A DNA stretch of 64,000 bases from the NCBI GenBank assembly GCA_039944855.1, contig JBDUXZ010000023.1, positions 1-64,000 of the forward strand, in the 5' to 3' direction. How positions within the stretch are numbered: the stretch's first letter is position 1; each line of letters opens with the position of its first letter. The notes below the pieces were generated by a model, which made no database searches, had not been told where the DNA came from, and was given only the letters and a program-made list of their open reading frames with translations. The stretch comes from Rhodothermales bacterium. GTDB lineage: Bacteria > Bacteroidota > Rhodothermia > Rhodothermales > JANQRZ01. A program made the position numbers and the translations under genes. This document shows, one piece after another, positions 1 to 55,301 of the stretch.

Positions 1-538
1 CAACGTCGAGGTGACGGAGAACACGTTCGTGCCGGGCGCCCCCCGCGCCGACTTCACGATCACGCGGCTCGACAATACGCAGACGGGGACCTACGGGCTC
101 ATCGCCGCCTCCGCTTGCAACGCGACCGTGATCGACCCCGACCTCGACTACTCGGGGACCGGCGCTCGGGGGGATATCGGGATGGCCTCGACCGAAGTGG
201 GGAGCGGCAGTATGCTCGACGCGTTGACGAGAGAGGGCGACGCTGCCTCGCGAGGTGCGGAGGCGACCTTGCCCGGTACCTTCGCTGTCGGCCAGAACTA
301 CCCGAATCCGTTCCGGGCCTCAACTAGCATCGCGGTCGAGTTGCCTGAGTCAACGGAGTTGCTACTCGAGGTATATAACCTGCTGGGGCAGCGCATCGCT
401 GTTGTGGCGAATGACCTTTACGGGGCCGGGTCGCATACGTTCAGCTTCGAGGCGCGTGATCTGCCGAGCGGGACCTACATCTACCGCATCGTCACGCCGG
501 AACTGTCGGTTGCTCGGCGGATGGTGGTGCTCAACTAA
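1..538 (+). CDS. type IX secretion sorting-domain protein, C-terminal fragment
   Basis: The frame is open to the left edge (codons from base 2), so only the last ~178 residues of a secreted protein are visible. The final ~80 residues form a type A type IX secretion C-terminal domain: the YPNPF motif, then a strand with YNLLGQR, then GTYIYR, ending in MVVLN and a TAA at 536-538. In Bacteroidota this domain takes the folded cargo through the T9SS translocon to the cell surface and is then usually removed. The region before it is low in recognisable motifs, so the catalytic or binding part lies outside the window and its function cannot be named. A GC-rich hairpin follows 16 bases after the stop. 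Confidence 0.85.
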   Translation, partial: NVEVTENTFVPGAPRADFTITRLDNTQTGTYGLIAASACNATVIDPDLDYSGTGARGDIGMASTEVGSGSMLDALTREGDAASRGAEATLPGTFAVGQNYPNPFRASTSIAVELPESTELLLEVYNLLGQRIAVVANDLYGAGSHTFSFEARDLPSGTYIYRIVTPELSVARRMVVLN

Positions 539-583: not shown

Positions 584-645
584 TCCAACTTCCGAAGGGT
601 AGCCACTGCGGGAGTTATTCTCAACTCATCCAACACGAGGTGCTC

Positions 646-801
646 ATGAAATCTCCCTCCACCCAGATCAAAATCAAAGCATCCACTCCGAAGAAGGCGT
701 TCGTCGCGCCCCGACTCGACCAGCACGAGAAGCTTGCGAGACTGACGTTTGACTGCAGTACTGGGGGCAACTGTGGCTCCGGGGAAAACCCGTTCCCGTA
801 A
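646..801 (+). CDS. short RiPP-like precursor peptide with lasso-type leader motif (51 aa)
   Basis: ATG at 646 is preceded by GAGG at 637-640 with 5-nt spacing, and the frame ends at TAA 799-801, giving 51 residues. Residues 1-18 are basic and polar with four lysine pairs or near-pairs. Residues 19-34 read F-x-x-P-x-L-x6-(A/L)-x-x-L-T, close to the YxxPxL...LT leader signature that RiPP recognition elements bind in lasso and related RiPP precursors. The tail after Thr34 is a 17-residue Gly/Asn/Cys-rich segment with Cys37 and Cys43, ending NPFP. That tail has no Asp or Glu at positions 7-9 after the expected cleavage, so a classical lasso ring is unlikely. No maturation enzyme is in the window. 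A strong terminator follows at 824, so it looks like a monocistronic unit. The gene assignment is strong; the product class is an inference. Confidence 0.72.
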   Translation: MKSPSTQIKIKASTPKKAFVAPRLDQHEKLARLTFDCSTGGNCGSGENPFP

Positions 802-823: not shown

Positions 824-863
824 GAGGCCCGAGCACTAGTACGGTGCTCGGGCCTCATTTCTT
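824..863 (+). terminator. intrinsic terminator of the small peptide gene
   Basis: A perfect 13-bp GC-rich stem (824-836 with 844-856) with a 7-nt loop is followed by ATTTCTT at 857-863. It sits 22 nt after the peptide gene stop and supports a short independent transcript. Confidence 0.8.
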
Positions 864-903
864 CATATCCGCGGCATGCAGTTAGTAAGTGCAACTCCCT
901 CTG

Positions 904-986
904 TACCCGGGGTGGGAATCGAACCCACACGACCTTGCGGCCAACGGAGTTTGAGTCCGTCGCGTCTACCGTTCCGCCACCCGGGC
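904..986 (-). tRNA. tRNA-Leu (anticodon CAA)
   Basis: Read on the minus strand from 986, the 83-nt sequence folds as a class II tRNA. The 7-bp acceptor stem is GCCCGGG with CCCGGGT (one terminal G-U pair), followed by a D arm and a 5-bp anticodon stem ACGGA/TCCGT around CTCAAAC, giving anticodon CAA. It has a long variable arm typical of tRNA-Leu and a T arm GTGGG-TTCGATT-CCCAC. Discriminator A73 is at 904. The encoded bases after it read CA rather than CCA, so CCA is probably added by the nucleotidyltransferase. It decodes UUG. Confidence 0.95.
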
Positions 987-1179: not shown

Positions 1180-2577
1180 ATGGCTCGCCCCCACCCCTCC
1201 TGTCCCGTTGCTACCCCCCTGCGCACTGATGCCGTGCGCCGCCTCGCGGCCGGGGTTCGCCGCCGTCTTGAGCGTGGACCTGCCTCCGGTACATGGCGGG
1301 TCGAATGCATTGAGGTCGAGGCCGAGGTGTGCGAGCCGTTGACGTGGCTGGCTGCACAGACCTCGCCCGCGAAGCTGTACTGGCACGGGCGTGGGGAGGA
1401 GGAGGTACTGGCTGGGACAGGCGTGGCCGACCTGATCGCTGGAACCGGAGCGGCGGCCCTGGATCAAGTGCAGGGCAGGTTAGACCGTCTGACCTCGTCG
1501 CGGGTGCGGTACGTTGGTGGGCTTCGGTTTGAGTCACTGCAGCCGGCAAATCCGGAATGGGAAGCGTTCGGGGCAGCCCGGTTCGTGCTACCCCGCGTGG
1601 AGTTGAGACGAGCGGGCGGGCGGGCACGCCTGGCCGCTAACCTCGTGCTCCCGCGCGATGCCCGCGAGGTCGAGCGGGTGGTGGCCGAGATCGAAGGGAT
1701 CCGGTGGCCGGATGCAACGCGCAGCGCGGCGCTTCCGCTCCCCGTCGCCCGCACCGATGCGCCCGGTCCCGAAGGGTGGCGGCAGAGCATTAAAGCGGCG
1801 CTGCATGCGTTCGAATCGACGGACCTTCAGAAGGTCGTCCTTGCTCGGCGGGCGCGGTACGAGTTCGACGAGCCGCTTGACCCGTTCGCCCTCACGCGGC
1901 GGCTTGAAGCGGCGACGCCGGCGTGCTTTCACTTCCTGGTCCAGCCCGTGCCCGGCGTCGCGTTCGTCGGGGCCTCGCCGGAGCGGCTGTTCCGGCGCGA
2001 CGGGACGGCGCTGCGCAGCGAAGCCGTAGCGGGCACCCGGCCACGAGGGCAGTCCGACGCGGCCGACGCGCAACTCCGCGACGAGCTTCGGATGAGCGAC
2101 AAGGATCAGCGCGAGCACGGGTTCGTCCGCGAGCAGATCCGCAACGTGCTCACCCCCTTCAGCGAGACGCTTGACGTGGAGAGCGAGGCGTCGGACATGG
2201 TGCTCGCGCGCGGGCGCCACCTCTATTCCGGCATCACGGCCACACTCAAGTCCGACGTGCGCAGCCTCGACCTCCTCCGCGCGCTCCACCCGACCCCCGC
2301 CGTGGGCGGCACGCCGACCGACGCGGCCCGCGCGATGATCCGGACAGCCGAGCCGTTCGACCGGGGCTGGTACGCCGGGCCGGTCGGCTGGGTGGGGAAG
2401 GATGCGGCGGAGTTCGCCGTCGGCATCCGGTCCGGGCTCGTGCAGGAGGGGGCGACGCCTTCGCTCGCGCTCTATTCCGGCGCCGGGATCGTGCGCGGCT
2501 CCGAGGCTGGGGCGGAGTGGGCCGAGATCGAGCACAAGATCAGCGACTTCGCCCGCGTCCTCGGCCTCGACGCCTGA
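1180..2577 (+). CDS. menF: isochorismate synthase MenF
   Basis: Converts chorismate to isochorismate, the entry step of the classical menaquinone pathway; Mg-dependent and cytosolic. At 465 residues it matches MenF/EntC. The chorismate-binding domain occupies about residues 200-460. Visible family motifs are the general-base lysine in LQKVVLARR (K218), the SEAVAGTRPRG segment with E281, the ELRMSDKDQREH stretch, HPTPAVGG at 370-377, and the C-terminal SGAGIVRGSEA...EIEHK. It is first in an eight-gene men operon; menD begins 14 nt later. The start at ATG 1180 is chosen because earlier in-frame starts are lacking; no strong ribosome site precedes it, so the N-terminus is less certain than the identity. 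A salicylate or siderophore role is less likely given the neighbours. Confidence 0.95.
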   Translation: MARPHPSCPVATPLRTDAVRRLAAGVRRRLERGPASGTWRVECIEVEAEVCEPLTWLAAQTSPAKLYWHGRGEEEVLAGTGVADLIAGTGAAALDQVQGRLDRLTSSRVRYVGGLRFESLQPANPEWEAFGAARFVLPRVELRRAGGRARLAANLVLPRDAREVERVVAEIEGIRWPDATRSAALPLPVARTDAPGPEGWRQSIKAALHAFESTDLQKVVLARRARYEFDEPLDPFALTRRLEAATPACFHFLVQPVPGVAFVGASPERLFRRDGTALRSEAVAGTRPRGQSDAADAQLRDELRMSDKDQREHGFVREQIRNVLTPFSETLDVESEASDMVLARGRHLYSGITATLKSDVRSLDLLRALHPTPAVGGTPTDAARAMIRTAEPFDRGWYAGPVGWVGKDAAEFAVGIRSGLVQEGATPSLALYSGAGIVRGSEAGAEWAEIEHKISDFARVLGLDA

Positions 2578-2591
2578 ACCCCGCGTCCGCG

Positions 2592-4379
2592 ATGTCCGAG
2601 TCCGCTGCCCCGTCCCCGAATCAACGCTGGGCCGATCTCCTCGTCGAAGAGCTCGTGCGGGCAGGTGTCGGGCTGTTCTGCCTCGCGCCGGGCTCGCGCT
2701 CGACCCCGCTCACAGCCGCTGTGGCGGCGAACCCGAAGGCCCAGCACGTCGTCCACTTCGACGAGCGGGGAACGGCGTTCTGTGCGCTCGGCTATGCCCG
2801 CGCGACGGGTCGGCCGGCCGCGTGGATCACGACGAGCGGCACGGCCGTGGCGAATGGGTTGCCCGCCGTCGTCGAGGCGTCAGTGGACGGCGTGCCACTC
2901 CTCCTCCTCACGGCCGACCGGCCACCGGAGCTACGCGACACCGGCGCGAATCAGACGATCCCGCAGCCTTCCATCTTTGGAGACTACGTCCGCTGGCGGT
3001 TCGACCTACCCGTGCCGACCGAGGCCATCGATCCGGCATTCGTGCTGACGACGGCAGACCAGGCCGTCTACCGCGCCACGGGCCGCCCGGCGGGGCCGGT
3101 GCACCTCAATTGCATGTTCCGCGAGCCGCTGGCGCCAGAAGTGAACAAGGCGCTGCCTATCCCCGAAGCATTGCAGCGATGGGCCGACAGCGTCGAGCCG
3201 TATACCCGCTACACCGCCCCGTCGGCCGTCGAAGCGACCGAGATCGAGGGGCTGATCGGGCGACTGCGCGCGGCCGAGCGCGGGCTCGTCGTGGCCGGGC
3301 GGCTGCGGACGCGGGCGGAGGGAGCATGGGCCACTATGCTCGCGGAGGCGCTCGACTGGCCGCTCCTGCCGGATATCGCCTCCCAGGTCCGGCTCGGTAC
3401 GATCTCGATGGGGGCGTGCGCCGGGTTCGATCACGCGCTCGGCAGCGAGGGCTTCGCCGCAGCGCACGCCCCCGATGCGGTCGTTTACCTCGGCGGCCGG
3501 AGCACGTCGAAGCGGCTCGGGCAGTACCTCGCACGGCACCGGCCGGCTACGTTTGTTGTCGTCCGCGACGATCCCTTCCGGTTCGACCCCCATCACCTCG
3601 TTACTGACCGCGTGGTGGCCGATGTGACGGCGTTCTGCAAAGCGTTTGAGGACGATTCCAGTGCAGCGGATCCGGCGTGGCTCGACGCGTGGCGTACCGC
3701 GTCCGATGCCGCACTCGGTGCGATTGCACAACGGATTGAGGCTTCCTCCGTTCTTACAGAGCCTGCCACGGCGCGGCTCGCTGCCGGCCACGCAGCACAC
3801 GCCGGGCACGGGCTCGTCCTCGCCGCGAGCATGCCCGTCCGCGACGCCGACAGTTTCGCGAGTCCCTACGACGACGACCCGCCGCTCGTCGTCTCGAACC
3901 GGGGGGCGAGCGGGATCGACGGGACCGTGGCGACGGCGGCGGGGGTGGCGCGCGGGCTCGGCACGCCGGTCACCCTGCTGATCGGCGACCTCGCCCTCCT
4001 GCACGACCTCAACTCGCTCGCGCTTCTCCGCGACCCGGCGCAGCCGCCCGTGACGGTCGTCGTCGTCAACAACGACGGCGGCGGAATTTTCCATTTCCTG
4101 CCGATCGCGCAGAACGAACGGCTCTTTGAGCCGTATTTCGGGACGCCGCACGGGCTCGGCTTCGAGCACGCCGCCCGGATGTTCGGGCTGCCGTACGCCC
4201 GGCCCGAGACGCCCACCGCGCTGGCGGAAGCGCTCGCCGGAACGCAACGCAGCGGCGCCTCTTCTCTCATCGAAGTCCCCACCGACCGCACTGCGAACCG
4301 CGCCCTCCACGCCGACCTGCTCGCCCGCGCGGCGGCGGCCGTCACCGACACCCTCTCTTCCGCGGCTCCGACGCCATGA
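2592..4379 (+). CDS. menD: MenD, SEPHCHC synthase
   Basis: Thiamine-diphosphate enzyme joining 2-oxoglutarate to isochorismate to give SEPHCHC. ATG 2592 gives 595 residues, the usual MenD length; the frame extends 25 codons upstream into menF but that part is Arg/Pro-rich out-of-frame sequence and is discarded. The N-terminal TPP domain shows the PGSRSTPL motif near residue 33 and FDERGTAFCALGYA with the conserved glutamate near 58. The C-terminal TPP domain shows GDLALLHD near 465 and the NNDGGGIFHFLP diphosphate-binding segment near 495. Its last four bases overlap the start of menH (ATGA), implying translational coupling. Confidence 0.96.
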   Translation: MSESAAPSPNQRWADLLVEELVRAGVGLFCLAPGSRSTPLTAAVAANPKAQHVVHFDERGTAFCALGYARATGRPAAWITTSGTAVANGLPAVVEASVDGVPLLLLTADRPPELRDTGANQTIPQPSIFGDYVRWRFDLPVPTEAIDPAFVLTTADQAVYRATGRPAGPVHLNCMFREPLAPEVNKALPIPEALQRWADSVEPYTRYTAPSAVEATEIEGLIGRLRAAERGLVVAGRLRTRAEGAWATMLAEALDWPLLPDIASQVRLGTISMGACAGFDHALGSEGFAAAHAPDAVVYLGGRSTSKRLGQYLARHRPATFVVVRDDPFRFDPHHLVTDRVVADVTAFCKAFEDDSSAADPAWLDAWRTASDAALGAIAQRIEASSVLTEPATARLAAGHAAHAGHGLVLAASMPVRDADSFASPYDDDPPLVVSNRGASGIDGTVATAAGVARGLGTPVTLLIGDLALLHDLNSLALLRDPAQPPVTVVVVNNDGGGIFHFLPIAQNERLFEPYFGTPHGLGFEHAARMFGLPYARPETPTALAEALAGTQRSGASSLIEVPTDRTANRALHADLLARAAAAVTDTLSSAAPTP

Positions 4380-5187
4380 CGACGCTGCCTCACACGATCA
4401 CCGGCCCGGCCGAGGCACCCGCCGTGCTGCTGCTCCACGGGTTCATAGGCGCCGCCGATGACTGGCACGCCGTCGCCGCCGACCTCTCCGACGCATTCCG
4501 CTGCATCGCAGTCGATCTCCCCGGCCACGGCGAGGCCGTCGACCTGCCGGACGAGGCATACACGGCCGAGGGCACGACAGCGACGCTCATGGCGACGCTC
4601 GACGCACTCGGCGTGGAGCGGTGCCACGTCGTGGGTTACTCGATGGGCGGACGGCTCGCGCTGTACCTCGCGCTACGGCATCCCGAGCGCTGCGCGCGGC
4701 TCGTGCTCGAATCGGCGTCGCCGGGGCTGCGGAGGGAGGCCGAGCGGGCCGAGCGCCGGGCGCTCGACGAGGACCGCGCCGTCGCCATCGAGCGGGACTT
4801 CCTTCGCTTTCTCGACACGTGGTACCGAATGCCGCTGTTCGCCTCGCTGAAGGATCACCCCGACGTGCGCGCGGCGATCATCGAGCGGCGGCGGCGGAAC
4901 CGGCCGGACGAGATCGCGCGTTCCCTCCGAGGCTTCGGAACGGGACAGCAACCCTCGCTGTGGGAAGACCTCCCCCGGCTCGCCATCCCGACGCTCGCCG
5001 TCGCCGGCAGCCGCGACCGCAAGTACGCCGACCTCGCCTTCGAGATGGCTGTCGCCGGGCCGCCCGTGATGCCCCTCGTCGTGCGGACGGGCCACACCGT
5101 CCACGCCGAGCAGCCCGCGCTCTTCGCCGCGCTCGTTCGCGACTTCATCCGCGACCCTGTTCCCCATCCACAACCCGCCCTGACCTG

Positions 5188-5188
<1 letters not shown>
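4376..5188 (+). CDS. menH: MenH, SHCHC synthase (alpha/beta hydrolase)
   Basis: Eliminates pyruvate from SEPHCHC to make SHCHC, the third step of the pathway. The 270-residue alpha/beta-hydrolase fold carries LLHGFIG near the N-terminus (oxyanion side) and a complete triad: Ser89 in GYSMGG, Asp214 in GSRDRK, and His240 in TGHTVH. Many related hydrolases cannot be told apart by sequence alone. Its position between menD and menB, with 4-nt and 1-nt overlaps, makes MenH the best call. Confidence 0.92.
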
Positions 5189-6069
<881 letters not shown>

Positions 6070-6073
6070 CCCG

Positions 6074-6427
6074 ATGCCCAGTGTGCCCTTCGAGATCGAG
6101 AACGTCGGCCACGGCTTCGCGAAGTCGCAGGGTGTGCTCCGCGTGGAGGGGGAGGACCTCACCTTCGAGGTGCAGACGACCGTGGTCGGCCTCCTCCGTT
6201 TGCCCGCTAAAATCTACCGTCTCGACTTGACTGACCTCGACGAGGTCCGCTACAAAAAGGGCCTGTTGAGCGACCGGCTCACGATCCGCACCCGGCCCCT
6301 CGACCGTATCACGAGTCTCCCCGGCGCTGCCGATGGGGCGCTCTGCCTCCGGATCAAGCGGGCGGATCGGGGAGCCGTCGAGGCGATCCTCGACCAACTG
6401 CACCTGTGGCGACCGACCGAGACGTGA
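6074..6427 (+). CDS. uncharacterised 117-aa protein within the men operon
   Basis: I do not recognise this gene by name. ATG 6074 lies 4 nt after the menB stop, and the end overlaps the menA GTG start by 4 nt (GTGA), so it is embedded and translationally coupled. The 117 residues have no signal peptide, membrane segment or cysteine cluster. The pattern of alternating beta-strands (residues 5-100) followed by a terminal helix ending LHLW resembles small bacterial PH-like or DUF304-type folds, but this is structural guesswork. A role tied to menaquinone or to a neighbouring enzyme is possible only from context. Confidence 0.85.
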   Translation: MPSVPFEIENVGHGFAKSQGVLRVEGEDLTFEVQTTVVGLLRLPAKIYRLDLTDLDEVRYKKGLLSDRLTIRTRPLDRITSLPGAADGALCLRIKRADRGAVEAILDQLHLWRPTET

Positions 6428-7344
6428 CCGCGTCTCCCCCACTCTCCCTTCCGCCCGCCCGCATCTGGCTTCTGGCGGCGCGGCCGAAGACGCTGCCGGC
6501 GGCCGTCGCGCCGGTCGTCGTCGGGATCGCCCTCGCGGTGGAGGCGGGGGCGTTCCACGCGCTCGCCGCGGCGTGTGCCCTCCTCGGGGCTATCTTCATT
6601 CAGATCGGCACGAACTACGCGAACGACTACCACGACTTCGCGCAAGGCGCAGACACGGCCGACCGGAAAGGACCGATGCGCGTGACGCAGGCGGGCCTCG
6701 TCTCGCCCGTCGCGACGCGGAGGGCGGCAATCATCGCCTTCGCACTTGCCGTCGCGGCGGGGACGTACCTCATGATCCGTGGCGGCTGGCCGATCGTCGC
6801 GATCGGCGTGGCGTCGCTCCTCTGCGGCTGGCTCTACACGGCGGGGCGCTACTCGCTCGCGTACCTCGGCATCGCCGACCTCTTCGTGCTCGCGTTCTTC
6901 GGACCGGTCGCCGTCGCGGGAACGTATTACGTGCAGGCCGTCGGCGACACTGGGGCGCTCGCGCTGCTGCCCGTCGTGATCGTCGCCGGGCTCGGCCCAG
7001 GGCTGCTGGCGACGGCGATCCTGCTCGTCAACAACATCCGCGACGTGGACGAGGACCGGGCGGCGAACAAACGGACGCTCATCGTCCGGCTCGGGCGGCC
7101 GTTCGGCGTCCGGCTGTGGGCACTGTGCGTCGCCGCCGCCGCGCTCGTCCCCGTCGCGCTGTGGCTGTGGACGGGCGCGCACGCGCTGTCGATGCTGGCC
7201 GTGCTCATCCTTCCGCTTGCGCTGCCGACCGTCCGCACCCTCCGCGACGAGCGCGACGCGCGGAACCTCAACCCGCTCCTCGGGGCGACGGCGCGGCTGC
7301 TGCTTGTCTACAGCGCGCTGTTTTCCGTCGGTTGGCTGCTCTGA
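6424..7344 (+). CDS. menA: MenA, DHNA polyprenyltransferase
   Basis: UbiA-family membrane enzyme that attaches the polyprenyl chain to 1,4-dihydroxy-2-naphthoate with loss of CO2, giving demethylmenaquinone. The first aspartate-rich motif appears as NYANDYHDFAQGAD...DRKGP at about residues 64-85. The second conserved loop contains NNIRDVDEDRAANKRTL near residue 200. Around eight hydrophobic helices span the protein. GTG 6424 is preferred because it overlaps the previous stop as GTGA; an in-frame GTG at 6406 would add six residues. It depends on DHNA, yet no DHNA-CoA thioesterase gene is present in the operon. Confidence 0.95.
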   Translation: MTASPPLSLPPARIWLLAARPKTLPAAVAPVVVGIALAVEAGAFHALAAACALLGAIFIQIGTNYANDYHDFAQGADTADRKGPMRVTQAGLVSPVATRRAAIIAFALAVAAGTYLMIRGGWPIVAIGVASLLCGWLYTAGRYSLAYLGIADLFVLAFFGPVAVAGTYYVQAVGDTGALALLPVVIVAGLGPGLLATAILLVNNIRDVDEDRAANKRTLIVRLGRPFGVRLWALCVAAAALVPVALWLWTGAHALSMLAVLILPLALPTVRTLRDERDARNLNPLLGATARLLLVYSALFSVGWLL

Positions 7345-7363
7345 CGGGGCACCGTGCCATCCC

Positions 7364-7443
7364 GTAGACGCAGCATGCTGCGTCTCTACGGTCAAATCGG
7401 CGTTTCGCCGTGTCTCGAAGACGCCCCGCCGGGGCGTCTCTAC
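7364..7443. repeat. cluster of palindromic repeats upstream of menC
   Basis: Two palindromes with the same flanks lie in the menA-menC spacer. One is at 7364-7389 (core GACGCAGCATGCTGCGTC). The other is at 7419-7443 (GACGCCCCG, one base, CGGGGCGTC). Both end in TCTCTAC. A small hairpin CGGCG-TTT-CGCCG lies between them. The second matches, apart from the centre, copies at 8894-8922 and 28365-28393, so this is a dispersed family. The spacer 7345-7464 contains nothing else recognisable. Confidence 0.8.
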
Positions 7444-7464
7444 CTTTGCATCGCCACTACGCCG

Positions 7465-8526
7465 ATGAACCTCTCGCTCCGTCGCTACACCCTTCCGCTT
7501 ACCGCGCCGCTCACGCTGAAGGGCACCGAGCACACCGCACGTGAGGGCGCGCTCGTCCGGCTCGACGACGACGCGCACACGGGCTGGGGCGATGTCGCGC
7601 CGCTGCCCGGTTTCAGCGCGGAGACACTGACGGAAGCCCTCGCCGATATCCGTCGGGCCACGGACGTGTTTGCCGGACGGACGCCGGGGCCGGAGTGGGC
7701 CGATCCGAACGCCGAGATCCACCGCGCGCTCGATGCGCTCGGGCTTGTCCCGTCGGCGCGGTTCGGGCTCGACCTCGCCGTGTTCGACCTCGCGGCGCAG
7801 GCATCGGGCCGGACGCTCGCCCAAGCGATGCACCCCGATCCCGAAGTGACGGTGCCGGTAAACGCACTCCTCACGGGCGAGGGCGACGTGCCCGCCGAGG
7901 CTGAGCGGCTCGCAACGGCGGGCTATCGGACGCTGAAGCTGAAAGTCGGACGCGCCGGGTTGGACGACGAGATTGCGCTCGTCCGCACGCTCCGCGAACG
8001 GCTTCCCGACATCGCGCTTCGGCTCGACGCGAATCAGGCGTGGACGATGGACGAGGCGGTCCGCTTCGCCGAAGGCGTCGCCGGGGTCGGGCTCGACTAT
8101 GTCGAAGAACCGCTGCGCGAGCCGGCCGACCTGCCCGTGCTGTGGTTCGACACGCAGCTTCCCGTCGCGCTCGACGAGTCACTCGTCGGCACCGAGCCCG
8201 ATGCGTTGCAGGGGAAGGGCTGGGCGACGGCGGCCGTGCTCAAACCGACGCTCCTGGGTGGCGTCGTGCGGACGCTCCGGTTCGCGGCGCAGGCGAAGTC
8301 GCTCGGCATTCGGCCTGTGCTCAGCGGGGCGTTCGAGAGCGGCGTCGCGATGCGCGGCCACGTCGCCCTCGCCGCCGCGACGGGCGCGGCCCCAGCCGGG
8401 CTCGACCCGTACCGCCGCCTCGCCGCCGATGTGCTCACGCCCCGCCTCCCGCTCGACCGCCCGACCGTCGACGTGCCGGCGTTCTTCCGCACCGAGCGCG
8501 CCGTCGAAATCCCCGAGCCGTGGTGA
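7465..8526 (+). CDS. menC: MenC, o-succinylbenzoate synthase
   Basis: Enolase-superfamily dehydratase making o-succinylbenzoate from SHCHC. ATG 7465 gives 353 residues; the frame runs further back to 7354 but only through repeat sequence, so that extension is rejected. All catalytic elements are visible: the KxK pair K158/K160, metal ligands D188 (RLDANQ), E214 (VEEPL) and D237 (LDESL), and the second-face lysine K260 (LKPTLLGG). Some enolase-superfamily relatives epimerise dipeptides or racemise N-acyl amino acids, but the operon context fixes the role. It overlaps menE by 4 nt (GTGA). Confidence 0.95.
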   Translation: MNLSLRRYTLPLTAPLTLKGTEHTAREGALVRLDDDAHTGWGDVAPLPGFSAETLTEALADIRRATDVFAGRTPGPEWADPNAEIHRALDALGLVPSARFGLDLAVFDLAAQASGRTLAQAMHPDPEVTVPVNALLTGEGDVPAEAERLATAGYRTLKLKVGRAGLDDEIALVRTLRERLPDIALRLDANQAWTMDEAVRFAEGVAGVGLDYVEEPLREPADLPVLWFDTQLPVALDESLVGTEPDALQGKGWATAAVLKPTLLGGVVRTLRFAAQAKSLGIRPVLSGAFESGVAMRGHVALAAATGAAPAGLDPYRRLAADVLTPRLPLDRPTVDVPAFFRTERAVEIPEPW

Positions 8527-9980
8527 CCGCGATCCCCGATCCCGTCCGCATCGCCGCACGCGAGCGCCCCGATGCGCCCGCCGTCATCGCACCGGGCGAA
8601 ACGCTGAGCTACGCCGACCTCGACCGCCGCGTCGACGGAATAGCCGCCGCGCTGCACGCGCACGGATTGAGCCGAGGCGACCGGCTCACCGTGTATCGTT
8701 CGGCGGATGTGGATTATCTCGTTTTGCTCCTCGCTGCCTTCCGAGCCGGGATCGTCGTCTGTCCGCTCAACACCCGGCAGCCCGTCGCCGCCGTGCCCGC
8801 GCTACTCGAACGGATCGCTTGCCGCACGCTCGTCGCCGAACCGGATCCGGCGTGGGGCGGATTCGACGTGATCGAGGCCGAATACCTCACGTCGTACAGA
8901 CGCCCCGGCGGGGCGTCTCTACACGAACCCTCCGACTGGCGGCTCGATGCGCCCGCGACGCTCGTCTTCACGTCGGGCAGCACGGGCACGCCGAAGGCGG
9001 CGCTCCACACGCTCGGCAACCACGTCATGAGCGCGCGCGGCTCCGTCGCGTTCTTCGGATTCGGGCCGGGCGATCGCTGGTTGCTCGATCTCCCGCTCTA
9101 CCACGTCGGCGGGCTCGCGGTGCTCGTCCGCTGCGTCCTCGCCGGAGCCGCCGTCGTGCTCCCCACTCGCGGCGTTCCGGTCGAGGAGACGGTAGCGGCG
9201 CACGGAGTGACGCACGCCTCGTTCGTCGCGACGCAGCTCCTCCGCATCGTCCAGTCGGGCGGGGCAGACGCGCTCGTGGGGATGAAAGCGATCCTGCTCG
9301 GCGGCAGCGCAATCCCGCCCGGCCTCGTCGCAGACGCCCACGCGCTCGGCCTCCCGATCTCGACCTCGTACGGCCTCTCGGAGATGGCCTCGACCGTCGC
9401 CGCCACGTCGCCCGGCGCGTCGCTCGACGCGCTCGGCACGTCAGGCGTCGTGCTCCCGCACCGCGAACTGAAGCTGGCCGGTGATGGCGAAATCCTCGTC
9501 CGCGGCGCGACGCTCTTCGCGGGCTACGCCGAAGGCGAGGCCGTCGAGCGGCCCGATGCCGACGGCTGGTTTCCTACCGGCGACCTCGGCGCGTGGGCGG
9601 GGGTGGAGGGCATGCGGATGCTCCGCGTCGTCGGGCGGAAGGACCACCTGTTCATCTCGGGCGGCGAGAATGTGCAGCCCGAAGAGGTCGAGGCCGCGCT
9701 CGGCCGACTCGCAGGCGTACACCGCGCCATCGTCGTGCCCGTCGCCGACGCCGAGTTCGGGCAGCGCCCGGTGGTGTTCGTCGATGCCGAGGCGTGGGAG
9801 CCGGAGGCGTGGCGCGACGGGCTCGGCGAGACGGTCGCCCGCTTCAAGATCCCCGTCGCCTTCCACCCGTGGCCGGGCGACGCCGACGGCGAGATGAAAG
9901 TCAGCCGTGCTGCGCTCCGCGAGCGGGCGACATCGCTTCAGTTGGGGAAGGGTGCTTCGCGCAGCGACCACACGCCGTAG
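8523..9980 (+). CDS. menE: MenE, o-succinylbenzoate-CoA ligase
   Basis: Adenylate-forming (ANL) enzyme activating o-succinylbenzoate with ATP and CoA for MenB. GTG 8523 overlaps the menC stop as GTGA; the product is 485 residues. Core motifs are TSGSTGTPKAA (P-loop, about residue 150), STSYGLSEMAS (A5), PTGDLG (A7), the hinge GRKDHLFISGGENVQPEE, and a C-terminal lysine in GEMKVSR. Oddity: residues ~125-136 (SYRRPGGASLHE) are encoded by a 29-bp dispersed palindrome at 8894-8922, just before the P-loop domain. The 3' end overlaps the convergent lipoprotein gene by 43 bp. Confidence 0.95.
   Translation: MTAIPDPVRIAARERPDAPAVIAPGETLSYADLDRRVDGIAAALHAHGLSRGDRLTVYRSADVDYLVLLLAAFRAGIVVCPLNTRQPVAAVPALLERIACRTLVAEPDPAWGGFDVIEAEYLTSYRRPGGASLHEPSDWRLDAPATLVFTSGSTGTPKAALHTLGNHVMSARGSVAFFGFGPGDRWLLDLPLYHVGGLAVLVRCVLAGAAVVLPTRGVPVEETVAAHGVTHASFVATQLLRIVQSGGADALVGMKAILLGGSAIPPGLVADAHALGLPISTSYGLSEMASTVAATSPGASLDALGTSGVVLPHRELKLAGDGEILVRGATLFAGYAEGEAVERPDADGWFPTGDLGAWAGVEGMRMLRVVGRKDHLFISGGENVQPEEVEAALGRLAGVHRAIVVPVADAEFGQRPVVFVDAEAWEPEAWRDGLGETVARFKIPVAFHPWPGDADGEMKVSRAALRERATSLQLGKGASRSDHTP
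8894..8922. repeat. palindromic repeat inserted in menE
   Basis: The 29-bp sequence has a perfect 9-bp inverted core (GACGCCCCG-G-CGGGGCGTC, 8899-8917) and the TCTCTAC right end seen in the menC-upstream and mla copies. It is read in frame as part of MenE without a stop codon. Confidence 0.85.
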
Positions 9981-14152: not shown

Positions 14153-14417
14153 GAGGGGCTCCGAGGGCTGGGCGGCGGTGATACGTGGGAGTCGGTGCCC
14201 GGTTCGTGAATCGTGCGTGACGGGGGACGGAACCTCGGCCGCGCCCGCCGCCTATCTACCTCCCATGCTAGCCTGACGCCGGAACGCTCCACGACAGCGT
14301 TACGGAACCATAGCCATCGAGCGCCCGGCTCTCCGGGCTCCCTCTGCCCCCGCGTAGGTTCCGCGCTGAGGGCTCTGGCCCTGCTCCTCTCTTTTCTCCG
14401 ATCTAACCGTTCTCCTC

Positions 14418-17400
14418 ATGTCTCTTGCGACCACGCCGGGCCGCCTCGCGTACGCGCTGAGCCTCGCCCTCCTCCTCGCCCTCTTCGCCACCGGCACCGC
14501 ACAGGCGCAGTGGATCAACGAATTCCACTACGACAACGCGAGCACGGACGAGGGAGAAGCCATCGAGATCGTCCTCCCAAGCTCTGCTGACCCCGCTGAC
14601 TTTGACCTCTACCTCTACAACGGGAACGGCGGTGCCGTGTACGACGGCCCGATCAACCTCGCCACCTTCACTGCCGGAGCATCGGAGACGGGGTTCACGG
14701 TCTACTCTGCCGCCATCGCCGGCATCCAGAACGGGCCGGATGGCCTCGCGCTGACGGAAAACGGCGTGCTCGTCTCCGGCCAGTTCCTCTCGTATGAGGG
14801 CGCGTTCGACGGCGTGGGCGGCCCGGCCGATGGAGTAACCTCCACCGACATCGGCGTGATGGAGCCGAGCGATACGCCCCTCGGTCAGTCGCTCCAACTT
14901 ATCGGCACCGGTAGTGCCTACGCCGACTTCACGTGGGCCGGCCCGGTCGCGTCCTCGTTCGGCAGCATCAACGACGGCCAGACGGCGGCGGCCAGCGGTA
15001 CGCCGGTCGTCACGTTCACGGCAGCCGGTGGCAGCGTGGCCGAGGGCGACGACGCCACGCTCACCGTCGCGCTCGACTTCCCGAACGACACGCCCGACGG
15101 CAACCCCGTCACCGTCACCGTCACGTTCGACGAGGACGCGAGCACGGCCAGCGCGAGCGACTTCTCCGGCCCGACGCCGGTGCAGGTCACCTTCGACGGT
15201 ACCGCCGACAACGAGGAGCAGTCCGTCATCGTGAGCGCGGTGCCGGACGAGGCTATCGAGGGCGACGAGACGGCCGTTTTCGACCTCTTCGTCGCGGGCG
15301 GCATCGCTGAGCTCGGGACGCCCGCCACGTTCACCCTCACCATTGAGGACGGCGACGCCCCCGAGCCCGCCCGCGTGCAGGTGATCCACAACGCGCCCGA
15401 CCCGCTTGCCGAGTTCGTGGACATCTCGATCGTGGACGTCGGCGCAGGCGGCGACGGGGCCACGTTCCAGGACGTGCCGTTCCGCGGCGCTACGCCGTTC
15501 TTCGACCTCGCCCCCGGCACCTACAACGTGCTCGTCACCGACGAGGAGGATCTCGCCGTCGTCATCATCGACGAGACGGTGACCGTCGTGTCCGGCGAGG
15601 CCTACCAGCTCATCGCGAGCGGCGTCGCCGACCCGAGCCAGTTCGAGCCGAACCCGAGCGGGCAGCCCATCGCCGCCACGCTCATCGTCGAGGCGAACGC
15701 GCAGGAAACCTCGACCTCACCGGACGCGGTTCACGTCAACGTCGTCCACGGGGTCACCGATGCCCCGGAGTTCGACGTGCTCAACGCGGGGAACGGTGCC
15801 GTGCTCGTAGACGACATCGTCTACGGTGAGCTTTCTGGTTACTCGGGGTTCGATGACGACCAGATCCTCCTCGCGGTCTCCGCGACGGATGGGAGCGGAA
15901 TCCTTGGCCTCTTCGTCGCCGACTTCAACGGCGCGAACGGCGAGGCGCTGACGCTCCTCCTCTCCGGCTTCCTCACGCCGGAGAACGATCAGGGCGGGCC
16001 GGGCCTCGGCATAGTAGCCGTACGGCCAGACGGCACGTCCTTCCTGCTGACACGGTTTTACGACGTGGACATCGCCGAGGCGCGGGCGCTCCCCAACGGG
16101 AGTCTTGTGCTGATCGAAGGCGTCGTCACGCGGGCGATGGGCGCGTTCACGCGGATGCAGGACGCGACCGGCGGCATCACGATCCGCCAGACCAACGGCG
16201 CCTTCTTCGACGACGTGGCCGACGGCACGATCGCGCCCGGCACGGAGGTCGGGCTCATCGGTTTCACGAGCGAGTTCAACCAACTCAAGCAGATCAACGG
16301 GAGCGACCTCCAGGATTACACGGTCTTCGGCACAACGGGCGTACCGGAGCCCCAGCTCGTGAGCCTCGAGGAGATCGCGAACAACGGCGAGGCGTACGAG
16401 AGCGAGCTGATCCAGGTATCGACGCTCGTCGCGCTGACCGGCGATGAAACGTTTCAGGCGGCCACGACCTACGAGATTGCGGAGTTCGACGTCCAATTCC
16501 CCGTCACGCTCCGCGTCCCGAGCGCGGACGACACAGCCATTGACGGCACGCCGATACCCGATGGGTTCTTCACGTTCACCGGCGTCCTCGGCCAGTTCGA
16601 CAGCGCCGACCCGGACGCGGGCTACCAGCTCCTCCCGGTGCAGGAGGACGACGTCGAGGCGCAGGAGGTCGTGACGGCGCCCGTCCAGATCATCCATAAC
16701 GCGCCCGACCCGGCCCTCGCTGAAGTGGATGTCTACGTCGATGGGCAACTCCTCCTCGACGACTTCGCGTTCCGCACCGCGACGCCGTTTGTCGGCGTGC
16801 CAGCGGACGTGGAGGTGGAGGTCGCCGTGGCGCCGGGCGACTCTGACAGTGCGGACGACGCGATTTTCACGGCGACGTACACCCTCGCTTCCGAGGACGC
16901 GGCCTACCAGCTCATCGCGTCCGGCGTTGGCGAGGGAGACTTCGAGCCGAACCCCGAAGGCGAGGACATCGCCTTCACCCTCCTCGTCAATCCAGATGTA
17001 CTCACCAAGTTCACCCCCGACTCCAACGTAGATCTCAACTTCGTCCACGGCACGCCGGACGCGCCGACCATCGACGTGCGCACGGGCGTGACGCAGGACA
17101 TCATCCTCTTCAACGATGTGGTTTACGGCGGCATCACGGGGTACCAATCCATTGCCCCAACCGCTCAAGTTCTAGAGGTGAGCACGGCTGATGGGGCCAC
17201 GACTGTGGCAGTGTTCGACGTGGACCTCACGGACCGTGAGGACGAGTACGGGACGATCCTCGCGTCGGGCTTCCTCACGCCGGGCAACGAGCCGGGCGAT
17301 GCGCCGAGCTTCGGCCTCCTCGTCGTGTTGGCCGATGGCTCGGAGTTCTTTGCCGCCCCGAGGATCACGCCGGGCACCGAAGACGGAACGACCGTCCCGA

Positions 17401-17675
17401 CCGCCTTCGCTGTCGACGGTACCTACCCGAACCCGTTCGTCACGACGACGACGCTGCGCTACGACCTCCCGGCCGACGCGCTCGTGAGCGTCGAGGTGTA
17501 CGACGTGCTCGGCCGCCGCGTGGCCGAGGTCGCGCCCGAGGCCGTGTCCGCCGGGTCCGGCCGCACGGTCACGCTCGACGCGGCGCTCCCGTCGGGGACG
17601 TACGTCTACCGCCTCACGGCCGAGATGCCGGCGGAGACGCGCACCGAGACGGGCCGGATGACCGTCGTTCGCTAA
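14418..17675 (+). CDS. large secreted multidomain protein with DUF4397 repeats and T9SS sorting domain
   Basis: The 1085-residue protein begins with a signal peptide ending near ATGTAQAQ (about residue 30). Next comes a lamin-tail-like or ExeM-type N-terminal domain (WINEFHYDNAS...), then a Calx-beta-like stretch (~190-315) with GSVAEGDDATLTV. A first DUF4397 unit follows (VQVIHNAPDP, ~320-530), then an OB-fold-like segment (~560-740: LVLIEGVVTRAMG). A second DUF4397 unit (VQIIHNAPDP, ~755-990) precedes the sorting domain (YPNPF, YDVLGRR, GTYVYRL). No catalytic nuclease motif is visible despite the ExeM-like parts, so an adhesive or structural surface role is more likely. A 12-bp terminator hairpin follows. 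Confidence 0.88.
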   Translation: MSLATTPGRLAYALSLALLLALFATGTAQAQWINEFHYDNASTDEGEAIEIVLPSSADPADFDLYLYNGNGGAVYDGPINLATFTAGASETGFTVYSAAIAGIQNGPDGLALTENGVLVSGQFLSYEGAFDGVGGPADGVTSTDIGVMEPSDTPLGQSLQLIGTGSAYADFTWAGPVASSFGSINDGQTAAASGTPVVTFTAAGGSVAEGDDATLTVALDFPNDTPDGNPVTVTVTFDEDASTASASDFSGPTPVQVTFDGTADNEEQSVIVSAVPDEAIEGDETAVFDLFVAGGIAELGTPATFTLTIEDGDAPEPARVQVIHNAPDPLAEFVDISIVDVGAGGDGATFQDVPFRGATPFFDLAPGTYNVLVTDEEDLAVVIIDETVTVVSGEAYQLIASGVADPSQFEPNPSGQPIAATLIVEANAQETSTSPDAVHVNVVHGVTDAPEFDVLNAGNGAVLVDDIVYGELSGYSGFDDDQILLAVSATDGSGILGLFVADFNGANGEALTLLLSGFLTPENDQGGPGLGIVAVRPDGTSFLLTRFYDVDIAEARALPNGSLVLIEGVVTRAMGAFTRMQDATGGITIRQTNGAFFDDVADGTIAPGTEVGLIGFTSEFNQLKQINGSDLQDYTVFGTTGVPEPQLVSLEEIANNGEAYESELIQVSTLVALTGDETFQAATTYEIAEFDVQFPVTLRVPSADDTAIDGTPIPDGFFTFTGVLGQFDSADPDAGYQLLPVQEDDVEAQEVVTAPVQIIHNAPDPALAEVDVYVDGQLLLDDFAFRTATPFVGVPADVEVEVAVAPGDSDSADDAIFTATYTLASEDAAYQLIASGVGEGDFEPNPEGEDIAFTLLVNPDVLTKFTPDSNVDLNFVHGTPDAPTIDVRTGVTQDIILFNDVVYGGITGYQSIAPTAQVLEVSTADGATTVAVFDVDLTDREDEYGTILASGFLTPGNEPGDAPSFGLLVVLADGSEFFAAPRITPGTEDGTTVPTAFAVDGTYPNPFVTTTTLRYDLPADALVSVEVYDVLGRRVAEVAPEAVSAGSGRTVTLDAALPSGTYVYRLTAEMPAETRTETGRMTVVR

Positions 17676-42971: not shown

Positions 42972-45629
42972 CTAGCGCAGCAGCGTCATCCGCCGCGTCT
43001 CGGCGAACTGCTCGCCCGCGACGCGGACGAGGTAGACGCCCGACGCCAGCGCGCGCCCGTCGACCTCGAAGGTGTGGCGCGTGCCGCCGGCGAGGACGCC
43101 GTCGTGGAGCGTGGCGACGGTCCGGCCCATCACGTCGTAGACGGCGACGGTGACGGCCTGCGCCTCGGCGACTTCGAGCGTGAACTGCGCCCGATCCGCG
43201 AACGGGTTCGGGAACGCCGACGAGAGGGCGTAGCCGTTCGGGAGCACGTCGCTCTCGCTCGCCACCGGGAAGACGCCCGGCGGGAGGTCGAACGCCTCGG
43301 TGCCGTCGGAACGGCTGGCGGACGTGCCCTGGTCGGCGCTGAAGCCGAGCCCGCGCTTGGCGAAGGCGCGCCAGATGATGTCCGAGTACGCGCCGTCGTA
43401 GGTGAGCGTGTCAGCCATCAGGATGGCGTCGCGGCCGTCGACGAAGCCGGGGCCGCAGGGCTGCATCTTCATCCCCTCGGTGACGAGCGTGAGGGCGATG
43501 TTGTTACCGGCGGTGCCGTTGATGAGGTCGGCGTCGAAGCCCTCCTCATCGATGAGGCCCCACGTCATCTCCCACAGCATGGCGGCCCAGACCGAGCCGA
43601 CGCCGTGCGGGATGGCTTCGCCCTGGATGTCGTTGTAGGTGTGCGGGTTGAGGCCCATGTCCGTGCTGTAACGGAAGGTCCGGATGCCTCCCCCGTCGAT
43701 GCCTTCGTACTGGAGGTAGGTCCCGATGCCGCGGCCGGTCTCGCCTTCGTCCCCTTCGTTCATCGTGAGCGCGAGGCCGTAGTAGTCGCTCCAGCCCTCG
43801 CCCATCTGCTCGTCGCCCGTGAGGCAGCCAGCCGAAGAGGGGCCGCCCGTGAGGCGGTTGGAGATGCCGTGGCCGTACTCGTGTACGATCACGCCCGCAT
43901 CGAGGTCGCTGTCACGGTTGAGCGCGCTGCGGACGTAGCCCTCGGCGGGCTCGTTGTCGAACAGGAGCTGGCCCGTGCTCTGCGCCACGAAGGCGGAGGG
44001 GATGACGAGGTCGTTGAGGTCGAACGGCAGGTCCGCCTGGTTCGCGCTCATGTTGAGGATGTCCTCAGGCGACCCCGTTTCACCGGCTCCGTTGCGGGAG
44101 TTGTTGTGGATGATGACAGCGATCGCGCCGGCCTCCTGCGCGTTCCACGCCTTCAGTGCGAAGGGGCAGTCGCCGCGCTCGACGAGGGCGATCTTGCCTT
44201 CAACCTCATCGGGATTGAAGAACTCCTCGCAGGCGCGGTCCGCCAGGTCGAGGTCGGGTTCGCCGCCGGGGTAGTCGCCGCCGTCGCCGGTCTCGGCCAC
44301 GATGATCTCGGTCGCGGGGAAGTCCACGGGGAAGGGCTGGCCGAATTGGGCGGTGCCGACCGCGTACACGCCGGCGATGCCGCCGGGCGCTACAATCGTG
44401 AGGCCGCCGCTACCGGTCCACTGGAACATCTGCATCCGCGGGCGGGAGCCGTCCGGCGGCGTGGAGAAGTTCGCGTTGTTCGTGCCGCTGCCGTCCTGCG
44501 CCTCGGCGCGGACGTAGTCGTTGCCGACCCCTGCAGCGGTGAAGTTCTCCGCCTGGAAGTTGCCCGCCGCTTCGTCGAAGCCGGCGGCGACGAGGACGTC
44601 GTGGACAATGTTGTTCCAGTAGAAGAGGTTCGTGATCGCGGCGTCCTCGTAGTCCACAGGCGTCTGGTTTTCGAGATCGACCTCGAAATCGAAGGCGAGG
44701 TCTTCGCCGCCGTCCGGGCTGTAGCCGGCGACGTTCGTGCCGGCGCGGTCCTCGTAGGCGTGGACGTTGTTGCCGCGCGTGGTCGTGTACTGAGCGTCGG
44801 AGTCGTCGTGCCAGCCCAGCGGCGAGGCCGTCGGGTCTTCGGGCGAGACGGCGAGCGAGCGGTCGCCGTGGCTCGGGGACTCGACGGGGTAGGCCCACAC
44901 GTTGTAGGACGCGCCGCCGCTGCGGGCGCCGACGAACGGGCTCGCGGCGATCGGGCGGTAGTCGGCGGGCGCGGCGTCCTCGGCGATCCACTCGTCGTGG
45001 ACGGTCCAGTCGATCTGGTCGAGGACGGCGCCGGTCTCGGCGTCGACCCGGAGGCTCCACCAGTGGCGCGCGTCGAGCTGCTCGATCGAGAGGTCCCACG
45101 CGAGGCGGAGCGTGCCGTCCTCCTGCACGAAGTAGACGAGCTGGACGGGGATCGCTTCGAGCGATACGCCGGCGTCGCTGAGCAGGAGCTGGTGGCGCTC
45201 GTTGGCGGCCCGCAGCACGCTCGGCGCGCTCGTGAGCGCGAGGCCGAGGTGGCGCGCGGCGGCCTCGACGGCGGCCTCGGCCGTGATCGACGGTGCGGGC
45301 GCGTTCGCCACGCGGCTCGCGTTCGGCACGAACCGGCTCTTCACGCCGACGACGCGGTTGTCGGTCGTGACGTGGGCGTTGAGCTGGCCGTTGTACACCT
45401 CGACGCCGTTGACCTTCTGGCGGAGGTAGACGTGGGTCACGCCGTTGACGCGGCTGACGTACTCGTCGGTGACGGCGACGTCGCCGAGGTCGCCGGCGGC
45501 GAGGCCGAGGGCGGCGCGGCTGGCGCGGAGGTGGTCGAGCGCCGTCGTGACGGCGCGGCTCTGGCTCTGGGCCTGGGCCAGCGGCGCGCTCATCGCGAGC
45601 GCTACAAGTAGGAGTAAATATTTGTGCAT
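42972..45629 (-). CDS. secreted M36 (fungalysin) metalloprotease with PA and T9SS domains
   Basis: The 885-residue extracellular zinc protease has a signal peptide (ending PLAQAQ), then an FTP propeptide (~30-250) and an M36 catalytic domain with an inserted PA domain (~385-520: GKIALVERGDCPFALK). The zinc motif HEYGH is at 583-587 and the third-ligand region QMGEGWSDYY lies downstream. The C-terminal T9SS sorting domain starts near 810 (FPNPFADRAQF...) and is almost identical to that of the neighbouring protease. Secreted proteolysis of peptides or proteins for nutrition is the likely role. Confidence 0.93.
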   Translation of the reverse strand: MHKYLLLLVALAMSAPLAQAQSQSRAVTTALDHLRASRAALGLAAGDLGDVAVTDEYVSRVNGVTHVYLRQKVNGVEVYNGQLNAHVTTDNRVVGVKSRFVPNASRVANAPAPSITAEAAVEAAARHLGLALTSAPSVLRAANERHQLLLSDAGVSLEAIPVQLVYFVQEDGTLRLAWDLSIEQLDARHWWSLRVDAETGAVLDQIDWTVHDEWIAEDAAPADYRPIAASPFVGARSGGASYNVWAYPVESPSHGDRSLAVSPEDPTASPLGWHDDSDAQYTTTRGNNVHAYEDRAGTNVAGYSPDGGEDLAFDFEVDLENQTPVDYEDAAITNLFYWNNIVHDVLVAAGFDEAAGNFQAENFTAAGVGNDYVRAEAQDGSGTNNANFSTPPDGSRPRMQMFQWTGSGGLTIVAPGGIAGVYAVGTAQFGQPFPVDFPATEIIVAETGDGGDYPGGEPDLDLADRACEEFFNPDEVEGKIALVERGDCPFALKAWNAQEAGAIAVIIHNNSRNGAGETGSPEDILNMSANQADLPFDLNDLVIPSAFVAQSTGQLLFDNEPAEGYVRSALNRDSDLDAGVIVHEYGHGISNRLTGGPSSAGCLTGDEQMGEGWSDYYGLALTMNEGDEGETGRGIGTYLQYEGIDGGGIRTFRYSTDMGLNPHTYNDIQGEAIPHGVGSVWAAMLWEMTWGLIDEEGFDADLINGTAGNNIALTLVTEGMKMQPCGPGFVDGRDAILMADTLTYDGAYSDIIWRAFAKRGLGFSADQGTSASRSDGTEAFDLPPGVFPVASESDVLPNGYALSSAFPNPFADRAQFTLEVAEAQAVTVAVYDVMGRTVATLHDGVLAGGTRHTFEVDGRALASGVYLVRVAGEQFAETRRMTLLR

Positions 45630-45670
45630 GATCCCGTGGTGTGAGTTGTGTTGGTGGGAATGGCGAATGC

Positions 45671-45704
45671 CGAGGCCGGCGCTCCGTGGCGAGCGCCGGC
45701 CTCG
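45671..45704 (-). terminator. terminator hairpin between the two M36 genes
   Basis: A perfect 14-bp stem (45671-45684 with 45691-45704) with loop CGTGGC lies 12 nt after the stop of the upstream protease gene. No T-run follows. Confidence 0.7.
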
Positions 45705-45715
45705 TCTCGGTCTGA

Positions 45716-48700: not shown

Positions 48701-49132
48701 GCGGGCGGCGCCGGTCGCGCGGCTCTGCACCGCGAGGGGCTCGGTGAACGTGAGGCCGAGGTGGCCCACAGCCGTCGCCACCGCGCTCTCCGCCGAAAGC
48801 GAGGGGGAGGCCGACCGCTGCGTGGTCCCGAGTGTGGGGTTGAACGCGCCCCCGGCGAGGAGCATGCTGCCGTCGCGCTTCACGTTGACCGTGATCCGCG
48901 CGTCGGCGACCTCGATGCCGCCCCGATGCTGCTGGAAGTAGACGTGGGTGACACCACTTCGCTTGCTCGTGTACGCATCGGTGACGACGGCCTCATCGAG
49001 AGCGGTGCCCGTGATGCCGAACTGATCGGCGTGCTGCTGGAGGTACTGGCGGGCCGTCTCGATCTGGGCGCTCTGGGCCCAGGCGACCGAGGGGAGGAGG
49101 AGCCCAACGAGGAGCAGGAGCAAGCGGTTCAT
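45716..49132 (-). CDS. secreted M36 (fungalysin) metalloprotease with accessory domains and T9SS domain
   Basis: The 1138-residue paralog of the previous gene has a signal peptide (PSVAWAQS), an FTP propeptide (~25-230) and an M36 catalytic domain with HEVGH at 435-439 and QMGEGWSDWYG. It lacks the inserted PA domain. After the catalytic part it has a MAM/immune-inhibitor-A-like jelly-roll region (~720-915, DDDMEEGSDNWT...WYVDDVVIG), then an Ig-like BACON/choice-of-anchor region (~945-1050: ITNDGERALDWQI). The sorting domain ends in TLLK. It is separated from its partner by a strong hairpin, so the two genes may be transcribed separately. Confidence 0.92.
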   Translation of the reverse strand: MNRLLLLLVGLLLPSVAWAQSAQIETARQYLQQHADQFGITGTALDEAVVTDAYTSKRSGVTHVYFQQHRGGIEVADARITVNVKRDGSMLLAGGAFNPTLGTTQRSASPSLSAESAVATAVGHLGLTFTEPLAVQSRATGAARATTFSGGGVSLAPIPAKLVYHPVEVKDAVLAWDVEIEQKEHVWTVRVDAATGEVLLQWDQVVHDHWGMPDGAAASAVVDLAPLASTDAYGPLATAENVRSGRLGGGGSYRVFDSPFESPSFGGRTLVTDPADPIASPLGWHDTGDTQYTKTRGNNTWAYVDASGNGGPNGTNAEPDGGEALEFDFELDFMMQPSAYRPAAVTNLFYWNNLIHDVMYQYGFDEAAGNFQENNFENGGLGGDALRAEGQDGSDLNNARYFRSPDGGISRIEMYLWNTSNPQRDGDFDNGIIAHEVGHGISIRITGGPSTDNCLTNSEQMGEGWSDWYGLIMSIQEGDVAETGRGIGTYALNQPITGPGIRPARYSTDMGVNAFTYGDIGGLAVPHGVGFMWATAVWEMTWNLIDIHGFDPDLIAGTGGNNVALALITEALKMQPCSPGFVTGRDAILAADEALYDGANNVAIWEAFAKRGIGFGASQGSPNSTGDEVESFDLPPGLGRFVFLEATPDPVNNFEFIDYTLTFSNGTARDEVSNVVMSAPVPDDAIYVGGSASDGGTFADGVVSFPAFDAATGSETVRTFRLLANADATAQIFFDDDMEEGSDNWTVERGAGTIDWTLGDGNGEGGSAGWFADDIASVTDQYLFFAEALALDDDAELRFTHRYDSETNFDGGVVEISTDDGATWEDLGDAMTENGYNSTISTSFSSPIGGRMAFSGASSGFITTIADLGDYVGQDVLIRFRFATDVSVSDDGWYVDDVVIGTAPVAVDVEVCAPGTETDCVESSILVIDPLAPAPAIDVSDDDVAVALEPGGTDTVEITITNDGERALDWQIGSQLEAPASWLSADPASGTIEVGEEQVVTLTFDATDITEEISEELLGVYSNDPENLVSDIAVTLTVAGVANEDGSALPGPYALGELFPNPFAERAQFTLEVAEAQAVTVAVYDVMGRTVATLHDGALAAGTRHGFEVDGRALASGVYLVRVTGEQFAETRRITLLK

Positions 49133-49432
49133 AGAACAGGAGTCTAGGGTGAGAACGTGAAGAGGGCGCGCATCGCACGTCGGAACGCACGGACACCGAG
49201 CGAAGCGGCTCTAAATCGTGCACGTCTTACCCCTTGCCTGAGCCACACCACGGCCCCGAATATAGGGCACGGTTTCGCCTCTATAAAGGGCGGATTAAGA
49301 TATTCCGAATTGTCCGCGATCTAACTCGCGGATGCAGAGCGTAGGCGCTTCCCTACTGCCCACATCGCGCCATGCCTCTTCGGCGGCGGCGCCTTGGAGA
49401 AACGGTCCAGCCTCCTGCGCGGCCTACCGGTA
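49133..49432. other. intergenic region upstream of the M36 protease gene
   Basis: This 300-bp gene-free spacer separates the protease gene start from the end of the DUF4177-like gene. It holds an AT-rich stretch (49258-49313, e.g. minus-strand TTTATA and TATATT hexamers) suitable for the protease promoter, and a 6-bp hairpin CCGCGA-TCTAAC-TCGCGG (49314-49331). No ORF with a ribosome site was found. Confidence 0.5.
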
Positions 49433-55254: not shown

Positions 55255-55301
55255 GGTGGTCGGCTGGAGGTAGCGGGTGAAGGGAGGAGAGCGGGAAGGG
55301 G

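Follow-up and report, generated by a model that had tools for sequence, protein, structure and literature searches.

The DNA analysed here (referred to as the window) is a stretch of 64 kb that starts at base 1 of contig C23 in a genome of 4.6 Mb and 41 contigs. At its start, a gene for a small peptide follows the 3' part of a gene for a protein of the type IX secretion system (T9SS) cargo type, and the following features were recognized:

2..538, + strand: 3' portion of the gene for a type IX-secreted protein with a Por_Secre_tail C-terminal sorting domain (PF18962, E=2e-07, 31.6 bits versus a cut-off of 27); the 5' part is lost at the contig start
555..583, + strand: inverted repeat with perfect 10-bp arms, located between the T9SS cargo gene and the gene for the peptide; a putative terminator without a T-run
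637..640, + strand: ribosome-binding site GAGG, 5 nt ahead of the ATG
646..801, + strand: peptide precursor gene (leader and tail), ATG to TAA, 51 codons, translation MKSPSTQIKIKASTPKKAFVAPRLDQHEKLARLTFDCSTGGNCGSGENPFP
691..750, + strand: leader block KKAFVAPRLDQHEKLARLTF (residues 16-35) with an RRE-docking type motif, F1-x-x-P4-x-L6...H9...L12...T16; it matches the profiles described below, with spacing that is invariant in 12 members
748..798, + strand: putative core or tail FDCSTGGNCGSGENPFP with two cysteines; S38 and T39 are candidate phospho-acceptors
824..856, + strand: terminator with a perfect 13-bp stem (arms 824-836 and 844-856, 7-nt loop), followed by ATTTCTT

The 51-codon gene, its ribosome-binding site and its perfect 13-bp terminator had been described in an earlier sequence-only reading of this DNA and proved exact to the base, and an inverted-repeat scan of the region around the peptide gene returned 824-856 as the sole terminator-like site. 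The motif F-x-x-P-x-L...L-x-x-L-T, which had been placed at residues 19-34, is present as F19-V-A-P22-R-L24...L30...L33-T34, and is followed by a tail that contains Cys37 and Cys43 and ends in NPFP, not in the Ser that is a feature of paeninodin-type kinase substrates. By the lasso Thr(-2) rule, the core would start at D36; counted from either F35 or D36, core positions 7-9 hold Gly, Asn or Cys and no Asp or Glu, in agreement with the earlier view that a classical macrolactam would not be formed. A Pfam/NCBIfam search with the peptide returned no match.

No maturation gene was seen beside the window peptide gene, the upstream side being unseen since the window begins at a contig start, so that any modification would occur in trans, which had been put forward as one option in the sequence-only reading. 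G001 and G002, the nearest relatives, have a conserved tRNA-Leu/menF site but no peptide gene there, indicating that the gene has not long been at this position. The tRNA-Leu(CAA) gene (window 903-986, minus strand) also lies near menF in G002 and, by sequence reading, in G001, and the surrounding DNA differs among genomes, which marks it as a variable site. From 1180 to 9980, the window carries a menaquinone row that was read from translations as isochorismate synthase, menD, menH-like, menB, menA, menC-like and menE-like genes.

A single-sequence search of the window's own genome returned one other match (E=1e-3), a 71-aa ORF on contig C29 that carries KVFVVPRIQRHQKLSTLTF, compared with KAFVAPRLDQHEKLARLTF in the window peptide; 11 of the 20 leader residues are identical, and the tails differ. 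When the kinase encoded beside this C29 paralogue was used to search relatives, a kinase subfamily was obtained, and short ORFs with the same leader were found near four of its members (in G095, G103, G068 and G033). A profile of these six leaders returned six further ORFs, with G097 contributing three, G003 and G075 one apiece and G103 an additional copy, giving a family of 12 members from 8 genomes, all within the order and including that of the window; the sample comprised one genome per species, with several fragmentary assemblies. An HMM of the four kinase-linked leaders only retrieved the window ORF as the best match in the 64 kb (E=9e-4, next 0.18), and inclusion of the C29 paralogue lowered this value to E=3e-6. 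With the 12-member profile, a sharp gap separated the members (E=1.8e-11 to 1.5e-8) from the next sequence (2.4e-4). The leaders of loci L148-L150, which first surfaced at weak single-genome E-values of 0.01-0.03, are in agreement with the family in their gene context.

All 12 members have F/Y1, P4, L/I6 and T16 at exact, gap-free spacing, with position 1 occupied by Phe in 11 members and by Tyr in one (G097b), and H9 is present in seven. The tails, in contrast, span 7-24 residues, are mutually unrelated and end in Ser in 8/12 members. The pattern that the sequence-only reading had named as supportive, i.e. conservation of residues 19-34 with a variable tail, is thus observed as an invariant F/Y-x-x-P-x-L/I-(9)-T among 12 members with unrelated tails; neither a lack of conserved homologues nor uniform conservation without maturation genes, either of which it had held to speak against a precursor, was found. 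A conserved RRE-docking leader with a variable tail in short ORFs is characteristic of RRE-dependent RiPP precursors, and we conclude that the 51-codon ORF is a genuine gene from a dispersed and apparently undescribed family of modified-peptide precursors. Searches of viral contigs and plasmids yielded no relatives of the peptide, a strict DNA pattern applied to 84,980 genomes matched only the G095 copy and four sites that translate to unrelated stretches, and a phylum-wide search with a two-sequence leader profile returned mostly noise.

The gene immediately preceding that of the window peptide encodes a type IX-secreted protein; missed in the sequence-only reading, it turned out to be a recurrent partner. 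A T9SS cargo gene is located directly upstream and in tandem at 7 of the 10 assessable loci (window, L105, L106, L147, L148, L149 and L150), and the peptide gene converges on such a gene at two more (L103 and L104); the C29 paralogue has no T9SS neighbour, while L151 and L152 were not counted because their contigs end there. The loci had been found through the leader or the kinase and not through the T9SS neighbour. Against a background of ~5 % of genes, tandem placement at six of nine non-syntenic loci (L105 and L106 being counted once) corresponds to P ~1e-6, a rough estimate because the lineages are related. No leader peptide of this kind follows any other T9SS gene of the window or of the related loci.

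Five of these other ORFs with a T9SS sorting domain are located in the window (14370-17672, 42975-45908, 45719-49210, 52260-53036 and 53500-56907). The type of cargo varies while the leader is kept, and includes a subtilase-family Peptidase_S8 (L147:6656-9727, in G003), an NHL/SMP-30-like protein (L149) and beta-helix proteins (L105 and L106). Contig breaks fall in or at the peptide-neighbouring cargo gene at window base 1, at the ends of L148 and L152 and at the starts of L150 and L151, which suggests that repeats in the cargo genes hide loci in draft assemblies. A literature search, in which subscription journals were sparsely covered, retrieved no report linking RiPP precursors, leaders or RREs with type IX secretion.

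Maturation genes near homologues, a search for which had been proposed in the sequence-only reading, were found as PqqD, HprK-like kinase and/or NTP_transf_5 genes beside several copies. On C29, the peptide ORF is immediately followed by genes for an HprK-related kinase and a PqqD-family protein, the latter ~1.2 kb from the peptide match; the only other PqqD gene of the genome is part of a complete lasso-type cluster on contig C30. The kinase-linked loci in G095, G103, G068 and G033 carry PqqD/RRE and HprK genes, and NTP_transf_5 adjoins the copies in G095, G103, G075 and G097; in the window's genome, it is located only near the C30 lasso cluster. The family-linked kinases form a subfamily distinct from the lasso-cluster kinases, and retain the residues that have been reported to be catalytic in lasso kinases, namely His, Lys (P-loop) and Asp-Asp (PMC9266682). 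The C29 RRE matches TbiB1 (E=1.4e-9), and no solved structure was found to be similar in sequence to the C29 kinase.

Cyclase and B2 protease genes are absent from the C29, L103, L104 and L106 loci as far as the available sequence extends; a B2 and an Asn-synthase-like cyclase occur only on C30, where the sole lasso B2 of the window's genome resides, and in a lasso set neighbouring the L105 locus. TIGR02228, representing the archaeal-type SpI signal peptidase, had no match in the window's genome at E<=1, compared with matches in 13 of 14 control genomes.

Among known systems, the nearest is found in Bacillota, namely that of the linear polyphosphorylated peptides (LPPs), which combines an RRE, an HprK-like kinase, an NTP transferase, an SpI-type peptidase and an MsbA-like transporter without a cyclase (Popov et al., Nat Commun 2026, PMC13381572), and for which the leader consensus YxxPxVLxHQxIxFETxxS and a restriction to Bacillota have been reported (PMC13381572). 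A stand-alone RRE and an HprK-like kinase without a macrolactam cyclase (the C29 pair, L103, L104 and L106), an NTP transferase (beside some copies, but in the window's genome only near the C30 lasso cluster), short precursors with variable tails and a lasso cluster in the same genome are all points of likeness, as is the leader, of which the aromatic residue 1, P4, L6, H9, L12 and T16 are in register with the LPP consensus, although only part of that consensus is matched. Conversely, Phe replaces Tyr in 11/12 leaders, the linked RREs lack the Tyr-binding Asp, the search of the window's genome for an SpI-type leader peptidase gave no match, and the precursors are scattered, often behind T9SS cargo genes, in hosts outside Bacillota. 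On account of the Phe leader and the peptidase that was not found, the family was not filed as LPP, and is better described as LPP-like in mechanism.

In paeninodin, an HprK-type kinase phosphorylates the C-terminal Ser (PMC9266682). Phosphorylated lasso systems of this type (with PadeK/ThcoK kinases) share with the family an HprK-like kinase, an NTP transferase, an RRE and, in most members, the C-terminal Ser; they differ in that the kinase-only loci lack a cyclase or B2, in that the family tails are too short or without a ring acceptor, and in a leader change from W/Y to F. Relative to T9SS cargo proteins themselves, the Por_Secre_tail sorting domain is found on the protein of the upstream neighbour and not on the peptide.

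In LppB, Asp70 (D70) forms a hydrogen bond with the hydroxyl group of the leader Tyr, while Asn33 binds the Pro kink (PMC13381572). If Phe leaders are read by the RREs linked to them, the Tyr-binding Asp should be dispensable, and this prediction held: in a comparison with part of the LppB sequence, the D70-equivalent is H, Y, S or Q in every RRE linked to the family kinase subfamily at the loci read, whereas it is Asp in two lasso-cluster RREs (C30 and L105). Asn33 is retained in all compared RREs, both family-linked and lasso. The correlation between the Phe leader and the lost Asp is imperfect because the G097b leader has Tyr. The window's genome and G068, each with an F-leader RRE without the Asp and a lasso RRE with it, represent a natural test of leader discrimination by RREs.

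Based on these findings, we consider it reasonably probable that the window ORF encodes an orphan precursor of the RiPP type from a family scattered in Rhodothermota (the phylum name being that of the sequence-only reading), that it is modified via the C29 RRE and kinase, and that it acts with T9SS cargo. The earlier proposal of a RiPP-like peptide with a non-lasso modification holds in its core, with the refinement that the relevant modification is probably of the kinase type. Modification of the window copy is most likely to take place in trans by the C29 pair: its leader (F-V-A-P-R-L...H...L...L-T) would dock in a stand-alone PqqD-type RRE, for which C29 provides the best candidate in the genome, and the HprK-like kinase would phosphorylate Ser or Thr in the tail, with S38 and T39 as candidates. 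Because loci with only the kinase possess no cyclase gene of their own, and because the tails either are too short or contain no ring acceptor, the modified peptide would remain linear. Its leader may be cut off by some peptidase or be retained, and the product would be exported to act outside the cell. As the peptide gene lies behind a gene for a T9SS-secreted protein, joint action is proposed, with the secreted protein being the probable partner or target of the modified peptide at the cell surface. Counting against this proposal are that no maturation gene was seen beside the window copy, that its tail does not have the terminal Ser of most kinase-linked copies, that C29 has no T9SS neighbour, that the gene is absent from this site in G001 and G002, that the L148-L150 leaders were at first weak matches, and that the genome lacks a dedicated leader peptidase. 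With its two-Cys, Gly-rich tail and no terminal Ser, the window copy is unusual, and may undergo a different modification or be a drifted orphan.

The former of these options, i.e. an RRE-recognized linear precursor that carries a disulfide or thioether on its two cysteines, or an adduct made by NTP_transf_5, instead of phosphates, is regarded as unlikely. The two-Cys, Gly-rich tail noted in the sequence-only reading is a property of the window peptide and not a family trait: NTP_transf_5 does accompany the family and both peptides of the window's genome contain two cysteines, but these are spaced by 6 versus 11 and all other members lack Cys, and targeted Pfam scans at the family copies examined called no radical-SAM, LanB/C or YcaO gene beside them. 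A decayed or unused orphan, with a copied leader, a drifted tail and lost maturation, would agree with the absence of local maturation genes, the atypical tail without a C-terminal Ser and the absence of the gene from the same site in related genomes. This reading is nevertheless rather improbable, as the ORF is intact with a good ribosome site and a strong terminator, the leader has been kept since the split from C29 while the tails differ, and a scattered location is the usual situation in this family (G103, G097 and G003). Processing in trans as a lasso precursor by the C30 cluster (B1, B2, C, HprK, NTP transferase and transporter) is highly improbable and was rejected: although the genome holds this full lasso-type set and RREs outside Bacillota can be promiscuous, e.g. 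FusB1 (PMC13381572), the peptide has an F leader and no Asp/Glu ring acceptor at positions 7-9, the C30 precursors carry YTAPQL leaders matched by an RRE that retains the Tyr-binding Asp, and a lasso could not be formed from tails of only 7-12 aa, as found in the family.

Returning to the orphan precursor modified via C29, we tentatively envisage a wider T9SS-coupled RiPP system, in which each of the scattered precursors would have a type IX-secreted protein as its counterpart and be served by a central RRE/HprK/NTP-transferase set; the F-x-x-P docking code would insulate this set from the Y-x-x-P lasso pathway in the same cell, and the phosphorylated peptides might partner, tag or anchor proteins at the surface. 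The family itself extends kinase-type, apparently linear RiPPs beyond Bacillota, a limit set for LPPs by the one paper that describes them, and its genetic tie to type IX-secreted proteins provides a first lead on the possible role of such peptides.

The C30 cluster (L041:13860-18388 and L042:247-4681) encodes two tandem precursors with a common leader, MKKLYTAPQLSDFGSISQLT, together with B1, B2, a cyclase, an HprK-like kinase, an ABC transporter and NTP_transf_5, and is of the phosphorylated-lasso type outside Bacillota. At L105 (G068:C1:245000-262000), a lasso set (ABC transporter, PqqD, Asn synthase and HprK) adjoins the F-leader kinase/RRE/precursor/T9SS locus, an arrangement that resembles the co-localization of LPP and paeninodin genes reported in Bacillota.
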